Source: an uncultured Taibaiella sp.
GTDB lineage: Bacteria > Bacteroidota > Bacteroidia > Chitinophagales > Chitinophagaceae
Direction: 5' to 3'
DNA length: 64,000 nucleotides
Assembly: GCA_937870855.1 (NCBI GenBank)
Contig: CALMWT010000185.1
Span: 1-64,000, forward strand
Part shown: positions 47,613 to 63,880 of the stretch, one piece after another
Layout of the letters: each line of letters opens with the position of its first letter
Position numbering within the stretch: the first letter of the stretch is position 1
Notes under the pieces: model-generated
Seen by the model: only the letters and a program-made list of their open reading frames with translations
Databases searched by the model: none
What the model was told of the DNA's origin: nothing
Made by a program: the position numbers and the translations under genes

Positions 47613-48239
47613 CTATTTAAGATACTCGTTTACTCGTTGCTGTATAAAATGTTTTACGCCTTCCCATGTTTGTCCTTTGAGGCTTACAGGTTCTTCGCTT
47701 TCTTCGGCATCGGCAAAATAGGTGAGTGCCTGTGGAATGGAAATGAGCATCTGATTCTTCGGGTATTTTTTCAAATAACAATCAATCATAGTCCGCACGG
47801 AATAATAATGCAACAACTCGTACACATCCCAAAAGTCTTTTTTTACTGCCCTTTTTAAAATAGCAAAAACCTTCATTGCCATCAGATCTTTGTCGCTATA
47901 TAGCCTGACACCATCAACAATTTCCGGAGCATCTATAAAAGAAAAAAAATGATTTTTTACAAAATCTACCTTCACATCATTTATGAAGCCGAATACCCCA
48001 ATTGGATTGTTTGAATTTCTATAAGTAAACGTGGGGAAATTTTTAGTGAGCACCTCAATTATGTCTTCATTTTCAAAATCGGAAGTGGAGAAAAAATCAA
48101 GGTCTATAGAAAGTCTGTGACTGTAACGAAGCGCTAAAGCGGTGCCGCCAGCGAGATAGAATTGTTGTAGCTCAGGAATGTTGGCAATGTTCTTTAATAA
48201 TGCCAGTGTCCCCGGTTCAATTGCGCTTGTCTGAAACAT
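47613..48239 (-). CDS. AbiEii/AbiGii-type nucleotidyltransferase toxin
   Basis: A 208-residue protein of the AbiEii family, DNA polymerase beta-like nucleotidyltransferases that act as toxins of type IV-like toxin-antitoxin and abortive infection systems. The catalytic core is FYLAGGTALALRYSHRLSIDLDFFS (GGT plus DxD). DVKVDFVKNHFF gives a further acidic residue, and YSDKDLMAMKVFAILKRAVKKDFWDVYELL is the helical C-terminal signature. The gene upstream overlaps it by 46 bp and is the presumed antitoxin. Confidence 0.88.
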   Translation of the reverse strand: MFQTSAIEPGTLALLKNIANIPELQQFYLAGGTALALRYSHRLSIDLDFFSTSDFENEDIIEVLTKNFPTFTYRNSNNPIGVFGFINDVKVDFVKNHFFSFIDAPEIVDGVRLYSDKDLMAMKVFAILKRAVKKDFWDVYELLHYYSVRTMIDCYLKKYPKNQMLISIPQALTYFADAEESEEPVSLKGQTWEGVKHFIQQRVNEYLK

Positions 48240-56184: not shown

Positions 56185-56217
56185 GCAGCTTGGCTCTGAG
56201 CGTGGCGTGCTTGTGCC
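56185..56217 (+). repeat. REP family 1, copy A (truncated)
   Basis: It contains GAGCGTGGCGTGCTTGTGCC, the right arm of the family-1 hairpin; the left arm is missing. Together with copy B it forms a block that is almost identical to 56773-56920. Confidence 0.7.
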
Positions 56218-56284
56218 GTTCTATTATATTTGCTATAACGAGTCGCTAATACAGACACAAGAATAAAATGAAGAAGCAAAAACA

Positions 56285-56330
56285 GGCACAAGCACGCCAC
56301 CCGCAAGATCAGCGCTGCATGCTTGCGCCA
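56285..56330 (-). repeat. REP family 1, copy B (inverted)
   Basis: GGCACAAGCACGC and GCATGCTTGCGCC bracket a central GATCAGC. The arms GGCGCAAGCATGC and GCGTGCTTGTGCC can pair over 13 bp as RNA, with two G-U pairs. Confidence 0.8.
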
Positions 56331-56336
56331 GTGGGG

Positions 56337-56750
56337 ATGATGGAGTTTTTCAAGTATTTATTTTACCGTATTTATACATGGGACTTAAAAAACTGGGGAT
56401 CAAATAATCAATCTTCATTAAACGCTATTTTAGGGACTTCTTTCTTAATGGGATTAAATGTAGAAATAGTGCACATGATTATTTTGATGGTATTTTATGA
56501 ACCACCTTTTCCATCATTAACAGATAATTTTTCTAAAATAGTAATTGCATTTATTGGTATTATTCTCCTTTTGATGAATTATCTTTTAATGGTCAAAGAT
56601 AAAAAATATAGAAAAATAGTAGCTGAGTTTCAACATGAAACAATAGAAAAAAGAAAGAAGGGAACAATTAAAGTTGGTGTTTATATTTTTTTATCATTTG
56701 CTATTCCAATAATAATAGCTGTTTTATATCATGAACTTAGTTCGACGTAG
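56337..56750 (+). CDS. AT-rich orphan membrane protein between REP copies
   Basis: A 137-residue protein starting MMEFFKYLFYRIYTWDLKNW immediately after REP copy B. An upstream in-frame ATG (56268) lies inside the repeat block and is not expected to be native. Three membrane helices are seen (FLMGLNVEIVHMIILMVFY, IVIAFIGIILLLMNYLLMV, VGVYIFLSFAIPIIIAVLY) with a basic loop between the last two. No family is recognised. It is far more AT-rich than the core genes. A membrane immunity protein is one possibility; this is inference from context only. Confidence 0.6.
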   Translation: MMEFFKYLFYRIYTWDLKNWGSNNQSSLNAILGTSFLMGLNVEIVHMIILMVFYEPPFPSLTDNFSKIVIAFIGIILLLMNYLLMVKDKKYRKIVAEFQHETIEKRKKGTIKVGVYIFLSFAIPIIIAVLYHELSST

Positions 56751-56760
56751 TCCCCTCATC

Positions 56761-56805
56761 TGGCGCAAGCATGCAGCTTAGCTCCGAGCGTGGCGTGCTT
56801 GTGCC
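56761..56805 (+). repeat. REP family 1, copy C
   Basis: A full hairpin unit starting TGGCGCAAGCATGCAGC and ending GCGTGCTTGTGCC, just after the orphan membrane gene. Confidence 0.8.
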
Positions 56806-56868
56806 GTTCTATTATATTTGCTATAATGTCGCAAATACAGACAAGAATAAAATGAAGAAGCAAAAACA

Positions 56869-56914
56869 GGCACAAGCACGCCACCCGCAAGATCAGCGCT
56901 GCATGCTTGCGCCA
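56869..56914 (-). repeat. REP family 1, copy D (inverted)
   Basis: A near-identical inverted partner of copy C; the sequence between C and D (with AAAATGAAGAAGCAAAAACA) is almost the same as between A and B. Confidence 0.8.
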
Positions 56915-56955
56915 GTGGGGTATTTAAGCCATTTTTTACAGAAATAATAAAAAAA

Positions 56956-57375
56956 ATGAGAAGCGTCATTATAATCACTAAAATTTTTTTATTGTTCGGC
57001 CCTCCTTTATTTGCTCAAAGCATGGACTATATAGGAAAAGATAGTTCCACCTTAAATATGGAAGAAGCAAATTTGCTAAACTCAATTTTGATAAATCAAA
57101 GGGGCGACTTTGATTTTAATAATAAAAAAGTTGTTTTTATTACAGGGAGTACTGGTAATCGTATTTTGACAAAGTCGGATTATTTTCAAAATTATTTACT
57201 ACCGTGGATAAAAAAAGGTGATACACCCTCAGTTTCTATGGTAAGACTAACTGATCAGGAAAAATGTAGGGCAGGTTATGATGTATTAATTATATCATGG
57301 GTAAAGATTTTTACAGATAGACAAAAGAAAAAAATAATTAAGGAATTGCAGATTGGTAGAGGTAAGCAGCCTTAA
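56956..57375 (+). CDS. AT-rich orphan exported protein between REP copies
   Basis: A 139-residue protein with a signal peptide (MRSVIIITKIFLLFGPPLFAQ). The mature part has FDFNNKKVVFITGSTGNRILTKSDYFQNYLLPWIKKG and ends with a basic segment (DRQKKKIIKELQIGRGKQP). No family is recognised. It starts 41 bp after REP copy D and its stop is followed by copy E. Composition is AT-rich. Possibly a captured immunity or cargo gene. Confidence 0.6.
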   Translation: MRSVIIITKIFLLFGPPLFAQSMDYIGKDSSTLNMEEANLLNSILINQRGDFDFNNKKVVFITGSTGNRILTKSDYFQNYLLPWIKKGDTPSVSMVRLTDQEKCRAGYDVLIISWVKIFTDRQKKKIIKELQIGRGKQP

Positions 57376-57402
57376 GGGCTATACAAAAAGCAATTCACCA
57401 TC

Positions 57403-57438
57403 TGGCGCAAGCATGCAGCTTGCCTCCGAGCGTGGCGT
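57403..57438 (+). repeat. REP family 1, copy E (truncated)
   Basis: The left arm GGCGCAAGCATGCAGC and GAGCGTGGCGT are present; the right arm is replaced by AAGTAAAAGAC. Confidence 0.65.
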
Positions 57439-57495
57439 AAGTAAAAGACAAAATAAAAACCGGCACTCAGCCGGCTTTTATTCTTTATTCATCTA

Positions 57496-58188: not shown

Positions 58189-58608
58189 CTAAGGGCTTCC
58201 TCTACACCGGATAAGGTAATGCGCAGTAGCGGCTATGTAATCATACAAACACCGTTCATAGTCATACAAGCGTGGTATGCAATCACACATTTGCTCTTTG
58301 TGAGATTTAAAACAGCGTGTGTAGTGATACAAGCCTTGTTTGCAATCAGCAATACGGTGTATGTAGCATTGCAAAGTAGGTTTGTAATAATACATCGCTT
58401 CTTTGCAATTATTAGTACGGCGGTTGTAATCATACAAAGGCAGAAAGTAGTCATACAAAGCTGCTATGTATTGTTGCATACACCCTATGTAATGTTTAGC
58501 AGCCTGTTTGTAATCAAACCTACGCTGTTTGTAATCATACATACTATAGGGTGTTATCAATATGGCGCTGTCTGCTGCATTTTTCATAAAAGAGGAATTT
58601 GCTTTCAT
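58189..58608 (-). CDS. heptad-repeat protein made of 16 units of 21 nt
   Basis: A 139-residue frame. Residues 1-20 are unique (MKANSSFMKNAADSAILITP). Then about 16 seven-residue units follow with consensus K-x-x-L-Y-D-Y, for example YDYKQRRF, YDYNRRTN and YDYERCLY. The period is exactly 21 nt over 58216-58551 with no indels. No signal peptide. The plus strand is also open with V-I-I-Q heptads, so the coding strand is not proven; the minus strand is favoured because it gives a polar, soluble protein with a unique N-terminus. Confidence 0.45.
   Translation of the reverse strand: MKANSSFMKNAADSAILITPYSMYDYKQRRFDYKQAAKHYIGCMQQYIAALYDYFLPLYDYNRRTNNCKEAMYYYKPTLQCYIHRIADCKQGLYHYTRCFKSHKEQMCDCIPRLYDYERCLYDYIAATAHYLIRCRGSP
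58216..58551. repeat. 16 tandem 21-nt units with a TTGTAATCATACAA-like dyad
   Basis: Each 21-nt unit centres on GTAATCATACAA preceded by TTT, so many contain TTGTA...TACAA inverted halves. Unit starts lie at 58216, 58237, 58258, 58279, 58300, 58321 and so on to 58531. The array could be a coding repeat or a regularly phased protein-binding array. Confidence 0.85.
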
Positions 58609-59655: not shown

Positions 59656-61872
59656 GGAGAAACGGTTACCGGCTTTAACGGCGTAAATGAGGAATACGAT
59701 TATGACCAGTTTGGCAGAACAAGCTATAAGAAAACAACCCTTGACAATAAAACCTTTGAAACATACATTGGCTACAATATCTATGGCGATGTGGCTTCAG
59801 TAAGTTACAATACTGGCTTTGGCTACCAAAACACCTATGACCAAAACGGCTTTTTGCAGCAGGTAAATACCAACTGGGGCGCTCCCTATTATGCTTCGGA
59901 GACCTTATTTACCAGCGGCAATATGAATGGGAGGGGACAGTACACTTCTTACATTCTTGGCAATGGATTAACCACTACCAAAACCTATGACGAAGGGTTT
60001 CCGTTAAACACAAGCACTCCCGGTGTGCAAAACCTCACCACCAATTTCAACATTCAAACCGGCAATCTGACCAGTCGCTGGGACTATATGAAAAATCTAA
60101 AAGAAGATTTTACTTATGACAATCTGAACCGTTTAACCTCTGCTACGGTGAGCACCTTTGGTGCGGGTGGCGGCACTACTTACCCTCCTTTTTCCGTTAC
60201 TTACGACCAGACAGGAACCATAACGCAGGGAAACATTAAAGCAAAGACGGATGTGGGCAACTATACTTATGCTGGCTTTCCGCGCCATGCAGTAAAGTAT
60301 GTGGATAACAGTCCGCAGCAGATCAGTAAATGGACGCAGGATATTACCTATACTCCTTTTAGAAAAACCGAAAAAGTAACAGAAACAGATAACCAAAGCA
60401 CGCACAATTTTGAACAAATATTTACTTACGATGCAGGTTACCAGAGAGTAAAATCCATACTAAAAGAAAACGGTGTGACCCAGCAGACACGTTATTATAT
60501 GGATGGGTATGAGTACAATGTAAATGGCAATGAATATGTTTATTACATTCCCGGCGGCGATGGTGTATGCGCCATTATTCAGCAGTGTGTAAATTCCACA
60601 GGACCTACAAAAGACGTACATTATATCTACACCGATCACCTCGGCTCTATAGTAGCTGCTACGGATGAGAACGGAACAATAGAAGCAGAGCAAAACTTTG
60701 ATGCATGGGGGCGTTTCCGCGATCCCGTGGCATGGCATTATGGCGTTACGCCTCACCCTACTGGAATAAAGGCATGGCTGTACCGCGGCTATACCGGGCA
60801 CGAGCACATGCAGGAGTTTAGCCTGATAAACATGAACGGCAGGATGTATGACCCGATATTGGGGAGGATGCTAAGTCCGGATAAGTATGTGCAGGCACCG
60901 CTGTTTTCTCAAAGCTATAATCGTTTCAGTTATGCCTGGAACAACCCATTAAGCTATACCGACCCAAGTGGTGATATATTTTGGGCGGCTGTAGCTGCGG
61001 CGGCGATTATGGGTGGCGCTATGAATTATGCAATGAACGATGCTGCCGGTAACGTGAACAGTTTTGGAGATGGTCTTAAGTTCTTTGGCATTGGTGCGTT
61101 GGCCGGCGCGGCAAGCGCCTATGTGGGTGGTCTGGCAGCGCCTGCGATGGGAGCCGCAACAGGCTTTAGCGCAGGTTTGGGAACAGGTTTAGTTGCAGGT
61201 GCTGCTAGTGGAATGATTTTAGGCGGCGGAAATGCGGCTCTCACAGGAGGGAATCTTTTTGAAGGAGCTGTAGGTGGTGGTGTAATGGGAGGAGTTACAA
61301 GTGGAATTACTGGGGGCATTATTGGTGGTCTTGATGCAATGAGCTATAACGGAAATTTTTGGGCAGCGGGCAGCACTGATCCTTATGCTGGGTTAATAGC
61401 CTGTAATGATTGCGGAGATTTTAAGTCATATCATTTTCCAGTGGTTGAGATTGTATCAAGTCGGTATAATCCGTTCAGTTGTATATCATGGATGTGGCCT
61501 TCTTTTAGCTTTAGTCCCCAAAGGAGCAGCCAAAATGGAGGTTATGAATTTACATCCTCTCAATATTCTGGCTTACCAGGCAGAGAGTCGAACTTAAATA
61601 GTAAAGCTAAAAAAATGTTCGGAATTGTGAATATTGATGAGATGCTTTTTCCTAATGGTGGCGGAGCCGGGGCGGCTAAGTTGCATGACATCATAGAAAG
61701 AATAAGTAATACCGGCAATGCTGTAGATATGGTAAACCAGTTAGATAAAATGTATACTCCCGAAACTCCTAAGCCAGCTCGCTCTATTGATACACACAGT
61801 GCTTTCGGAAATTGGTATTATCATGAAACTATTAAGAACGGAGCAGACACACCTATAATTATCCCTCGTTAA
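59656..61872 (+). pseudogene. 5'-truncated Rhs repeat protein with polymorphic C-terminal domain
   Basis: The frame is open from just after a TAG (59653-59655) and encodes about 738 residues. Rhs/YD repeats (YDYDQFGRTSYK, FTYDNLNRLTSATV, YTDHLGSIVAATDENG) lead to the Rhs core end GRMLSPDKYVQAP...YNRFSYAWNNPLSYTDPSGD. After that lies a glycine/alanine-rich segment (61020-61330). A unique C-terminal domain of about 150 residues follows. Full Rhs proteins are 1500 or more residues with a signal peptide; here the N-terminal part is missing, so the gene is probably a displaced cassette. GTG at 59791 is one possible start. The C-terminal domain is a candidate toxin of unknown type. Confidence 0.8.
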
Positions 61873-61878
61873 AGTAAT

Positions 61879-62625
61879 ATGATGCGATCCTTTAGTTTCT
61901 TTCTTTTGTTTCTTCTTGGCTGTAATCAAGAGAGCAGGAAAATAATACCTATAGATGATAAAAATTTTCGGGAAATTGTGCTACATGGTGACAAAGTGGT
62001 TGCAGTACAGCAATTCACCATTGAAAACGGTGAAACCCTTCTCAATGGCTACAGCAAAAAATACTATAATTCTGGAGCTATAAAGGCAGTGGCTAAGTAT
62101 AGAATGGGAAGGAAGGACAGCATAAGCATGGAATATTTTGAAGATGGCTCAGTTGCTGCCATTTACAATAGGTTTGCCGGACGACCTATTGGAAAACAAG
62201 TAGAGTACTATTCAAATGGGAGCATCAAAAATATTTTGCTTGCAGGAGCGATGGATTCCTCTCTCTTTTATATGCAATGCACACACGACGGTAAAATAAA
62301 GTTTATGAGTGGAGTACCTCTATATAGCCACATTAATAAAATGTCGATTTCTCGTGGAGATACATTTAGAATCAGTCACATGGTGGTAAAAGAAAGATTC
62401 ATTTCACCCATTTTAAACATAAAATTAATTAATCCTGAAGGGACCATTGTCTATGATAGTACGATCACCAAGTTTAAACATTATCAGAACAATCACATAT
62501 ATGATTTCGTTGGAGTTTTCAGTGGCACCGGAGAGTATTTATATTCAGCCACAATAAAGTTATTGAAAGAAAATAAAGTTATAGTAGAAGAAGATATACT
62601 CGATACTATATTGGTGACTAACTGA
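61879..62625 (+). CDS. MORN/YwqK-repeat lipoprotein, candidate immunity protein
   Basis: A 248-residue protein with a lipoprotein signal (MMRSFSFFLLFLLGC). Residues 55-125 contain MORN_2/YwqK-type repeats (NGYSKKYYNSGAIKAVAKYR, MEYFEDGSVAAIYNRF and VEYYSNGSIKNILL). A beta-rich C-terminal domain follows. It starts 6 bp after the Rhs stop and is transcribed with it. YwqK-like proteins accompany toxins in several bacteria, so an immunity role for the Rhs tail is plausible; this is inference. Confidence 0.65.
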   Translation: MMRSFSFFLLFLLGCNQESRKIIPIDDKNFREIVLHGDKVVAVQQFTIENGETLLNGYSKKYYNSGAIKAVAKYRMGRKDSISMEYFEDGSVAAIYNRFAGRPIGKQVEYYSNGSIKNILLAGAMDSSLFYMQCTHDGKIKFMSGVPLYSHINKMSISRGDTFRISHMVVKERFISPILNIKLINPEGTIVYDSTITKFKHYQNNHIYDFVGVFSGTGEYLYSATIKLLKENKVIVEEDILDTILVTN

Positions 62626-62627
62626 CT

Positions 62628-62759
62628 GCTCAGTTCAGCGTAGTCTGTAGCCTATGGTTTGTGGGCGGATGACTACTTTGTAGCGGCAAGCAGTCAGTTT
62701 GGCATAGTGTGTAGCGTAGGGTTTGTGGGCGTATGACTACGTCGTACCGGTAAGCAGTC
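62628..62759. repeat. two tandem copies of a 64-nt repeat
   Basis: TAGTCTGTAGCCTATGGTTT at 62641 recurs as TAGTGTGTAGCGTAGGGTTT at 62705, followed in both by GTGGGCG.ATGACTAC and AAGCAGTC. Confidence 0.75.
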
Positions 62760-62795: not shown

Positions 62796-62897
62796 ATGAA
62801 ACGACTATTAATAATATTAACCGTTCTAACCACACTTCTGGGCTGTAAGAAAGACAAGGAAGATGTTTATTCTCCACTGGCGCGAGAGTTAGCGTAG
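62796..62897 (+). pseudogene. truncated lipoprotein start fused to REP family 2
   Basis: A 33-residue frame, MKRLLIILTVLTTLLGCKKD then KEDVYSPLARELA. It has a perfect lipoprotein signal and lipobox, but after residue 25 the frame runs straight into the REP hairpin and stops. It looks like a lipoprotein gene cut off by repeat insertion. Confidence 0.5.
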
Positions 62898-62906
62898 CGC
62901 TTTCGT
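62874..62906 (+). repeat. REP family 2, copy G
   Basis: CCACTGGCGCGAGAGTTAGC followed by GTAGCGCTTTCG; arms GCGCGAGAG and CTTTCG pair partly. Confidence 0.65.
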
Positions 62907-62921
62907 TAAACAGTAGCAAGC

Positions 62922-63071
62922 ATGAAACTAATATTGATTTTTCATTTTTTAATATTATCATCCTTATGCTTTGGTAAAAATAGTGACCCATCTGGCGCAA
63001 GCATGCAGCGTTGGCTTCGAGCGTGGCGTGCTTGTGCCGTTCTGTTTTACACTTACAATAATGAGTCTTAA
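62922..63071 (+). pseudogene. truncated exported protein fused to REP family 1
   Basis: A 49-residue frame with a signal peptide (MKLILIFHFLILSSLCFGK). It then reads the REP hairpin as protein (SGASMQRWLRAWRACAVLF) and stops. A second example of a signal-peptide frame cut off by a REP. Confidence 0.45.
62993..63038 (+). repeat. REP family 1, copy F
   Basis: A full unit from GGCGCAAGCATGCAGC to GCGTGCTTGTGCC, 5.5 kb away from the A-E cluster. Confidence 0.75.
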
Positions 63072-63116
63072 ATAAAAGTTTTATGACCAGTCTGAACTAT
63101 ATTTTATCCACTGGCT

Positions 63117-63152
63117 CCACTGGCGCGAGAGTTAGCGTAGCGCTCTCGTGTC
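63117..63152 (+). repeat. REP family 2, copy H (upstream of the transposase)
   Basis: CCACTGGCGCGAGAGTTAGC then GTAGCGCTCTCGTGTC; the arms GCGAGAG and CTCTCG pair. A second small hairpin GCCAGTT/AACTGGC lies at 63160-63177. Confidence 0.75.
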
Positions 63153-63229
63153 TAATTTGAACAGCCAGTTTGCAACTGGCATTTGAAAAAAGAAAATCTT
63201 AATTATCTCATTATCTCATAGCTACATCC

Positions 63230-63781
63230 ATGTCGTCGCGTTACAAAGTTCATCATGATTATGTGCCACATTTTATTACCTGCACGGTAGTGAGCTGGAT
63301 AGATGCCTTGAGCCGGGAACATTATAAAGAGATAGTGGTGGAAAGCTTGAATTATTGCATCAGCAAGAAAGGATTGCAGCTTCATGCATGGGTTATTATG
63401 AGCAATCATCTACACATGATTTTAAGTGCTTCGGAAGGTTCAAGGATCAGTAATATAGTGCGTGACTTTAAAAAATTTACCAGCAGGAAGATTACGGATG
63501 CTATAACTACTAACATACAGGAAAGCAGAAGAGCATGGATGCTCGGCATGTTTGGTTATGCAGGGATGAACAACAAGAGTAATGATCAATACCAGTTCTG
63601 GCAACAGGATTATCATCCTATAGCTCTTGACAGAAAGGATATGTTTGAACAGCGTATGGGCTATCTTCATGACAACCCGGTGCGTGCCGGGCTTGTGTGG
63701 GAAGCAGCGCATTACAAATATAGTAGTGCTGGAGATTATTATGAGAACAGAATGGGTTTATTACCGCTGATAAAACTTTAA
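63230..63781 (+). CDS. REP-associated tyrosine transposase (RAYT)
   Basis: A 183-residue Y1/IS200-like transposase. The HUH pair is in LHAWVIMSNHLHMILSASEG. NIVRDFKKFTSRKI matches the family, and the C-terminal MGYLHDNPVRAGLVWEAAHYKYSSAGDY is the RAYT signature with the likely catalytic tyrosine region. It is flanked by inverted copies of REP family 2 (63117-63152 and 63836-63870), as expected for a transposase that cuts REP ends. Domesticated RAYTs are usually single-copy per genome. Confidence 0.9.
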   Translation: MSSRYKVHHDYVPHFITCTVVSWIDALSREHYKEIVVESLNYCISKKGLQLHAWVIMSNHLHMILSASEGSRISNIVRDFKKFTSRKITDAITTNIQESRRAWMLGMFGYAGMNNKSNDQYQFWQQDYHPIALDRKDMFEQRMGYLHDNPVRAGLVWEAAHYKYSSAGDYYENRMGLLPLIKL

Positions 63782-63810
63782 GCCATGGAACATGCAAGCT
63801 TTGAATGCCG

Positions 63811-63828
63811 GTCTGGAGACCGGAAGAT
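63811..63828. repeat. short palindrome after the transposase gene
   Basis: CCGGTCT and AGACCGG pair around a 2-nt loop; together with the hairpin at 63160-63177 it brackets the transposase gene. Confidence 0.4.
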
Positions 63829-63835
63829 AAGACAG

Positions 63836-63870
63836 ACACGAGACACCCTTCGGAAGTCTCGCGCCAGTTG
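63836..63870 (-). repeat. REP family 2, copy I (inverted, downstream of the transposase)
   Basis: On the minus strand it reads CAACTGGCGCGAGAC ... TCTCGTGT, matching copy H in inverted orientation. Confidence 0.7.
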
Positions 63871-63880
63871 GAGAACAGTA

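Follow-up and report, generated by a model that had tools for sequence, protein, structure and literature searches.

REP doublets carrying a relic of a transposase gene start precede small genes, one of them immunity-like, near an RHS locus of an uncultured Taibaiella

Results and Discussion

Two small genes between REP blocks

The DNA analysed here (the window) comprises 64,000 nucleotides of contig C185 from an uncultured Taibaiella sp. (genome G000; 3.22 Mb in 211 contigs), and its features are collected in Table 1. Two small genes, each preceded by a repeat block, are followed in the same direction by an RHS gene, a MORN-repeat gene and a unit containing a REP-associated tyrosine transposase (RAYT). 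Gene 1 matched the Bfi1 family immunity model NF053699 over residues 2-129 of its 137 (E 2.2e-8, 34.1 bits), and because this score is under the curated cut-off of 100 we refer to it as a Bfi1 relative and not as a member. Its ATG abuts the upstream block directly, and use of an in-frame ATG at 56268 inside the block would add 23 residues. No solved structure matched gene 1.

Table 1. Coordinates of the features discussed, as positions of the window
Feature	Position	Strand	Basis or remark
REPIN copy a	56185-56336	+	lacks the left 16 nt; REP and inverted REP around a 67-nt loop; R1 match 56278-56334 minus
Promoter-like box TATATTTG (TAnnTTTG), copy a loop	56225-56232	+	sequence
Decayed RAYT start ACGAGTCGCTAATAC, copy a	56238-56252	+	intact as ATGAGTCGCAAATAC in sister REPIN C185 66553
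Gene 1 (137 aa), small membrane protein related to Bfi1-family immunity proteins	56337-56750	+	NF053699
REPIN copy b	56757-56922	+	complete
Promoter-like box TATATTTG, copy b	56813-56820	+	sequence
RAYT start relic ATGTCGCAAATAC, copy b, 2-nt loss	56826-56838	+	sequence
Gene 2 (139 aa), secreted protein whose relatives share its start	56956-57375	+	relatives' sequences
Half REP	57399-57438	+	cut within second stem arm
Bidirectional terminator-like hairpin at the close of the array	57460-57474	.	pattern match only
RHS gene	59791-61872	+	TIGR03696, 49.1 bits
MORN-repeat protein directly after RHS	61879-62625	+	PF07661, E 1.3e-4, below cut-off
RAYT unit, 999 bp	62873-63871	+	exact second copy at C185 64902-65900, outside the window
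Outer family-2 REP (left end of duplicated unit)	62873-62907	+	sequence
Half REPIN of family 1 in passenger, decayed RAYT start	62989-63045	+	R1 match; loop
Inner family-2 REP (left end of core REPtron)	63115-63150	+	sequence
RAYT, 183 aa	63230-63781	+	NF047646, 104.6 bits (cut-off 80); PF01797, 35.3 bits (cut-off 23)
Inverted family-2 REP (right end of unit)	63836-63871	-	sequence

The initial annotation had described AT-rich orphan genes, unrelated to each other and set apart by paired REPs. The two genes are indeed AT-rich (GC 0.263 for gene 1 and 0.310 for gene 2, versus 0.418 for the contig), mutually unrelated and separated as stated, but they are not orphans, with the gene 1 family present in 14 of 294 genomes of the taxonomic family (13 of the 293 others) and that of gene 2 in 12 (11 of 293; best identity 47%). 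In genomes G276 and G035 an upstream ORF belonging to an RHS locus ends no more than 7 nt from the start of the gene 1 relative, G214 has two copies downstream of an RHS gene, and similarity to the RHS core was detected by tblastn beside the relatives of G214 and G276. The relative on contig C83 of G002 sits between housekeeping genes and not by a toxin gene, and that of G296, from another genus, adjoins a RAYT element bearing REPs of the type recognised by R1, our covariance model of the family-1 REP; such REPs were absent from 11 of the 12 gene 1 loci examined. The relatives of gene 2 were found in ordinary surroundings, with neither R1 REPs nor RHS similarity in the 7 loci examined, and an immunity role is therefore not established for this gene.

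The blocks are REP doublets

The blocks represent one element type, a REP doublet (REPIN), built as an imperfect palindrome of ~165 bp (CTGGCGCAAGCATGCAGC ... GAGCGTGGCGTGCTTGTGCC - loop - GGCACAAGCACGCCAC ... GCTGCATGCTTGCGCCAG) in which two inverted REPs pair into one hairpin. Folded as DNA, 56757-56922 reached -52.8 kcal/mol (z -9.7), whereas 200 shuffled sequences gave -25.6 +/- 2.8. Each arm is also a REP in its own right with a 13-bp stem that includes two G-U pairs, both of which were invariant in 17 of 17 aligned REPs, with covariation absent; these 17 come from 14 different places in the own and related genomes, some of them as pairs, and were selected by us as complete enough. The asymmetric G-U pairs would single out one strand, which fits a transposase reading single-stranded DNA. 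Much of this had been anticipated by the initial annotation: its two nearly identical blocks of opposed REPs were recovered (95% identity, E 3.9e-62, in a BLAST search of copy b against the own genome), as was its 13-bp hairpin with two G-U pairs. The limits that it gave for the first block stand, the second block begins at 56757 and not at 56773, and the third REP that it saw closing the array is present, but as a half cut in the stem.

That one block was duplicated as part of a larger segment, with the genes diverging afterwards, would explain the near identity of the copies, yet we consider it very improbable, as the identity stops at the REPIN edges and the element also stands alone elsewhere (C145 and C185 66553). 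The 150-nt flanks of the copies are similar only at the level of shuffled sequence, with 279 of 500 shuffles on the left and 141 of 500 on the right reaching the observed score; it was therefore the element that moved and not a larger segment, and the simple segmental duplication that had been raised as a possibility at the outset does not apply.

No conserved GTAG tetranucleotide was found at the REPIN foot, which reads C(A/T)CTGG or CTTGG. Subclass 2.6 is described as lacking GTAG too, in the portions of PMC6006769 on which we draw, so that the missing tetranucleotide rules out the classical REPIN type only. We also considered and rejected an RNA element, for which the Rfam matches were confined to microRNAs and snoRNAs far under their gathering scores, as any long hairpin yields, and the pair counts lacked covariation, conservation being at the level of the DNA sequence. 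Sigma-70 promoters were likewise rejected (4 observed versus 5.1 expected).

Distribution of family 1

Both doublets and singlets of the element recur at scattered places in the genome. R1 gave 15 matches in the own genome, spread over 6 contigs: 7 on C185, all within 10.5 kb (56.2-66.8 kb), two each on C197, C145 and C123, and one each on C198 and C167. Two of the seven on C185 are one REP repeated within the duplicated RAYT unit; counted as elements, truncated ones included, 6 of 13 fall in that stretch. A further truncated copy was located on C53 by BLAST. Full doublets are those at C185 56757, C185 66553, C145 1647 and C123 15017, the remainder being halves or truncated. Across the 294 family genomes, 64 have at least one R1 match, and some of these are tandem REPIN arrays, as in G086, where about ten short-loop REPINs or REPs are densely arrayed by an intact RAYT (L160 6345-9960), a good and active-looking model of the REP type. 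On C197 of the own genome (16.6-17.7 kb; L045 6580-7720) a GIY-YIG gene lies between two half family-1 REPs whose loop sides point outward, in the order also seen at gene 1 and gene 2. In G002, of the same genus, a single family-1-type REP (L051 1493-1548) adjoins a gene read by eye as MORN-repeat.

A RAYT gene start within the REPIN loop

The sister REPIN at C185 66553, which lies beyond the window, has ATG AGT CGC AAA TAC 20 nt after its left REP; these codons spell MSRKY, the beginning of a RAYT gene. These 15 nt are intact in this one copy and decayed in the remaining copies (Table 1). The box TATATTTG begins 13 nt ahead of the RAYT start in copies a, b and 66553, and the C145 copy has TATGTTTG. 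TAnnTTTG is the -7 element of Bacteroidota promoters; an upstream promoter element at the normal distance from the box was not matched by eye, nor was a RAYT 3' end recognised by eye in the REPIN loop.

Searching the 294 family genomes for a REP end followed by N(12-42) and ATGAGYMGNAARTAY returned one place each in 5 genomes, compared with 0 in a reversed control and ~0.07 expected under uniform base composition. Three of the five precede RAYTs (G222, G307 and G269), one is the sister REPIN (C185 66593-66635), and that of G234 is a second relic, composed of a REP and MSRKYNFNDNKSFG up to a stop; its RAYT start runs for 14 codons and is followed by an unrelated ORF. Among nine intact RAYTs, TAnnTTT[AG] begins 11-13 nt ahead of the ATG in five (G222, G269, G159, G307 and G271) and is absent from the expected spot in four, namely the two of the own genome, G128, and G086, which has it only further upstream.

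RAYTs with R1-type REPs on both sides are found in G128, G086, G307, G269, G159 and G296 (four other genera), and the REPtrons of three of these relatives measure 710, 751 and 857 bp. Where pairs of related RAYT elements from other species were compared, DNA similarity was limited to the element in the stretches used. No intact family-1 RAYT was found among the five RAYT-like places of the own genome, which are two identical copies on C185, one on C30 (51% identity, with other repeats), one on C19 and a fragment on C173.

Taken from the sequence comparisons, the blocks are most likely internal-deletion derivatives of a RAYT transposon type that persists in related genera. An element of the form inverted REP - RAYT - REP would have lost its interior, leaving a REPIN that retains the REP at each end, the promoter-like box and the initial RAYT codons, the rest of the gene being gone. 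A REPIN of this kind would be a fossil of the proposed route of REPIN derivation, and our search of the open literature, with subscription journals mostly outside it, found no REPIN described as containing a RAYT start.

A RAYT unit present twice with its passenger

The RAYT at 63.2 kb scores above the curated cut-off and is a member of the REP-associated tyrosine transposase family; its motifs NHLH, WQ and YLHDNP are close to the subclass 2.6 motif as given in the cited part of PMC6006769. The gene is flanked by inverted family-2 REPs (CCACTGGCGCGAGAG...; 63118 plus and 63857 minus) that differ from family 1, and because the unit is bounded by this other REP family, family 1 is probably not the main substrate of the enzyme. 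Its core REPtron (63115-63871) has a length of 757 bp, matching the 710-857 bp of the relatives.

A stretch of 999 bp around this core is identical between 62873-63871 and 64902-65900 (L044 6974-7972 and 9003-10001) and divergent directly outside, and both of its ends coincide with ends of family-2 REPs. The copied unit begins at the outer and not at the inner family-2 REP, 242 bp further left, and thus includes a passenger of 241 bp that has a gene fragment and a half family-1 REPIN. No target motif common to the ends of the two copies was found. These features favour the view that the duplication is the trace expected from REP-bounded carriage of passenger DNA, recombination or an assembly artefact being other possible sources. 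RAYTs are described as incapable of self-mobilisation in the portions of PMC3116915 used here, and in the open literature (subscription journals mostly outside the search) we found no report of a REPtron copied with a passenger. A REPtron present twice in identical form with REP-exact ends would make RAYT mobility directly testable.

An exact repeat of 999 bp is hard to assemble from short reads, and contig C167 ends inside one of the REPs, so that the duplication of the RAYT and part of the clustering might be artefacts of a draft in 211 contigs. We regard this as unlikely, given that unique sequence borders both copies left and right within a single contig with no N, that the boundaries fall exactly at REP ends, and that REPINs a and b differ from each other and are independent of the 999-bp repeat.

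The duplicated unit also bears on the cassette-like array proposed in the initial annotation, with exchange of genes between conserved REP blocks as its test. As a mechanism, a RAYT would excise and reinsert whole REP-gene-REP units, a transposase-driven analogue of integron cassettes. The layout of REPs and genes is as proposed; exchange was not observed, no gene being found in two places with its REPs. At the loci examined in the 294 family genomes, which include no strain-level relatives, no relative of gene 1 or gene 2 has matching REPs on both sides or occurs elsewhere with the same joint, and the order REP-gene-REP is itself not diagnostic, because any two REPINs flanking a gene give it. 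The genes and blocks are at the same time not fixed in all relatives: none of those searched holds the gene 1/gene 2 locus, and both genes are absent at the corresponding flanking-gene neighbourhoods of the genus relatives examined. Indirect support comes from the 999-bp RAYT unit, with its exact second copy, unrelated flanks, outer-REP start and passenger, as well as from the REP-bounded GIY-YIG gene of C197 and from a second REP-dotted array of small genes at an RHS locus in G200, and the lack of a shared target motif at the unit's ends counts against it. On balance we doubt that REP-bounded cassettes explain the array. We are equally doubtful of a broader form, a RAYT system still mobile as a unit with its passenger and acting as a slow cassette system that would break RHS modules, leave toxin fragments behind and put promoter-bearing REPINs before the surviving immunity genes.

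Compared with integron cassettes (attC), the array likewise has a palindromic joint by each small gene, whereas the joints here are complete mobile elements that are also found alone elsewhere in the genome, and Pfam scans of proteins from the window and the contig (part of the ORFs) detected no integron-type tyrosine recombinase (IntI).

REP clusters and the RHS neighbourhood

The RHS gene contains the sole RHS core domain found in the genome (60784-60972), and the MORN-repeat protein behind it is the probable product of the cognate immunity gene, judging by its position and the sub-threshold PF07661 match. Further downstream come the RAYT unit, the toxin-like fragment CT1 and two small genes, then the second identical RAYT unit, ahead of CT2 and one small gene, and finally the 66553 REPIN, ahead of CT3, one small gene and another repeat. 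After the RHS gene, each RAYT unit or REPIN thus lies upstream of a toxin-like fragment whose next small gene is intact, with the exception that a lipoprotein gene before the second RAYT unit ends within the first REP of that unit. From their position we read CT1-CT3 as displaced RHS toxin ends. They gave no family match and no relative among the sequences searched, including 0 of the 293 other family genomes for CT3; solved-structure matches to CT1 were at chance level only, and the gene after CT3 (imm3) had no plasmid match.

Within 16 kb, C185 carries five repeated hairpins; six are present at the RHS locus of G200 (another genus; L178 8150-13433), and none of 80 comparison regions reached four; the REP clusters at these two RHS loci are exceptional and not typical of RHS. 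At the G200 locus the small genes are interspersed with another palindrome, in four copies, and with three R1-type REPs, and an ORF at the contig end weakly resembles a Y1 transposase (22.5 bits, cut-off 23). A general link between REPs and RHS was rejected, enrichment being absent under either of two stem rules. At least two repeated hairpins were present in 2 of 40 RHS regions versus 2 of 40 controls (Fisher p 0.69) with a stem rule that we relaxed after seeing the perfect 9-bp version overlook the known positive C185, and the perfect 9-bp rule itself gave 4 of 40 versus 2 of 40 (p 0.34). The 40 RHS regions were drawn from 8 of 13 genomes chosen for long contigs, with G000 and G200 excluded as the cases that had raised the idea, and the controls were placed at round-number positions of our choosing in the same genomes, mostly on the same contigs. 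A second short repeat, CTCGACGTAGTTTGTA, present in G200 and also near 62634, did not recur across RHS regions at large.

The REPINs may simply have accumulated in dispensable DNA, the RHS neighbourhood included, with no function for the neighbouring genes. That RHS loci as a class are not REP-rich and that family-1 elements also reside on 6 other contigs would be in keeping with such passive accumulation; the exceptional density at C185, and a REPIN that runs right up to the first base of the gene 1 start codon, are less easily accommodated. The orientation of the elements is in keeping with it as well: the boxed REPINs face a co-directional gene in four of four cases, an outcome that chance would give 1 time in 16, at distances of 0 nt (gene 1), 33 nt (gene 2), ~230 nt (the small gene after CT3) and ~106 nt (the C145 gene). 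We put passive accumulation at somewhat under an even chance.

The explanation that we favour, and hold to be reasonably probable, is that the REPINs are deleted RAYT transposons that were mobilised in trans into the RHS neighbourhood before immunity-type genes. A RAYT acting in trans would cut at the REPs and copy the deleted elements into the DNA around the sole RHS gene, a stretch that contains small immunity-type genes too. Insertions would thus have come to lie directly before gene 1 (Bfi1-like) and gene 2, and a sister copy before an unnamed gene accompanied by a truncated toxin-like fragment. They might then have persisted where the immunity gene was left intact and was given a promoter, this donation of promoters by REPINs being a proposal and the least certain part of the scheme. 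If boxed REPINs do drive neighbouring immunity genes, this would explain how such genes survive after the loss of the toxin gene.

Relation to known systems

The elements share with the REPINs/BIMEs of Bertels and Rainey (2011, PMC3116915) an inverted REP pair, a single long hairpin, dispersal, and RAYTs in related genomes; they differ from them, as far as the cited portions of that paper go, by the lack of GTAG, a low copy number, and a loop holding a RAYT start and a promoter-like box. With REPtron subclass 2.6 (Quentin et al. 2018, PMC6006769; PMC8266576) they have in common, according to the parts used here, a RAYT of the HuH type, the Bacteroidetes class, and atypical hairpins without GT[AG]G. 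The origin of REPINs and the continuing mobility of RAYTs are presented as open points in the parts of PMC3116915 and PMC8266576 that we draw on.

Like MITEs derived from insertion sequences, the REPINs are short, keep their terminal inverted repeats, have the transposase deleted and are accompanied by a parent type known in relatives; unlike in MITEs, a single-strand transposase handles the ends, which are REP hairpins in place of terminal inverted repeats of the classical kind. Orphan immunity arrays and displaced RHS modules similarly combine an RHS gene with ensuing small genes, here with one Bfi1-family relative, whereas REPs at the joints were seen only here and in G200 and not at RHS loci generally.

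Other features of the window

Between the MORN gene and the RAYT unit lie two tandem 64-bp repeats (62630-62757, 83% alike), and similar wording (CGTAGT..TGTA) recurs in intergenic stretches of the RHS locus in G200 and where gene 1 ends (~56741). A frame at 58189-58608 is composed of near-repeated words (CxxDYxxxLYDY) that stem from TGTAATCATACAAA-type repeats, and looks like a degenerate repeat and not a gene. On the minus strand, 47613-48239 encodes an AbiEii-type nucleotidyl transferase (PF08843), possibly a type IV toxin-antitoxin gene.
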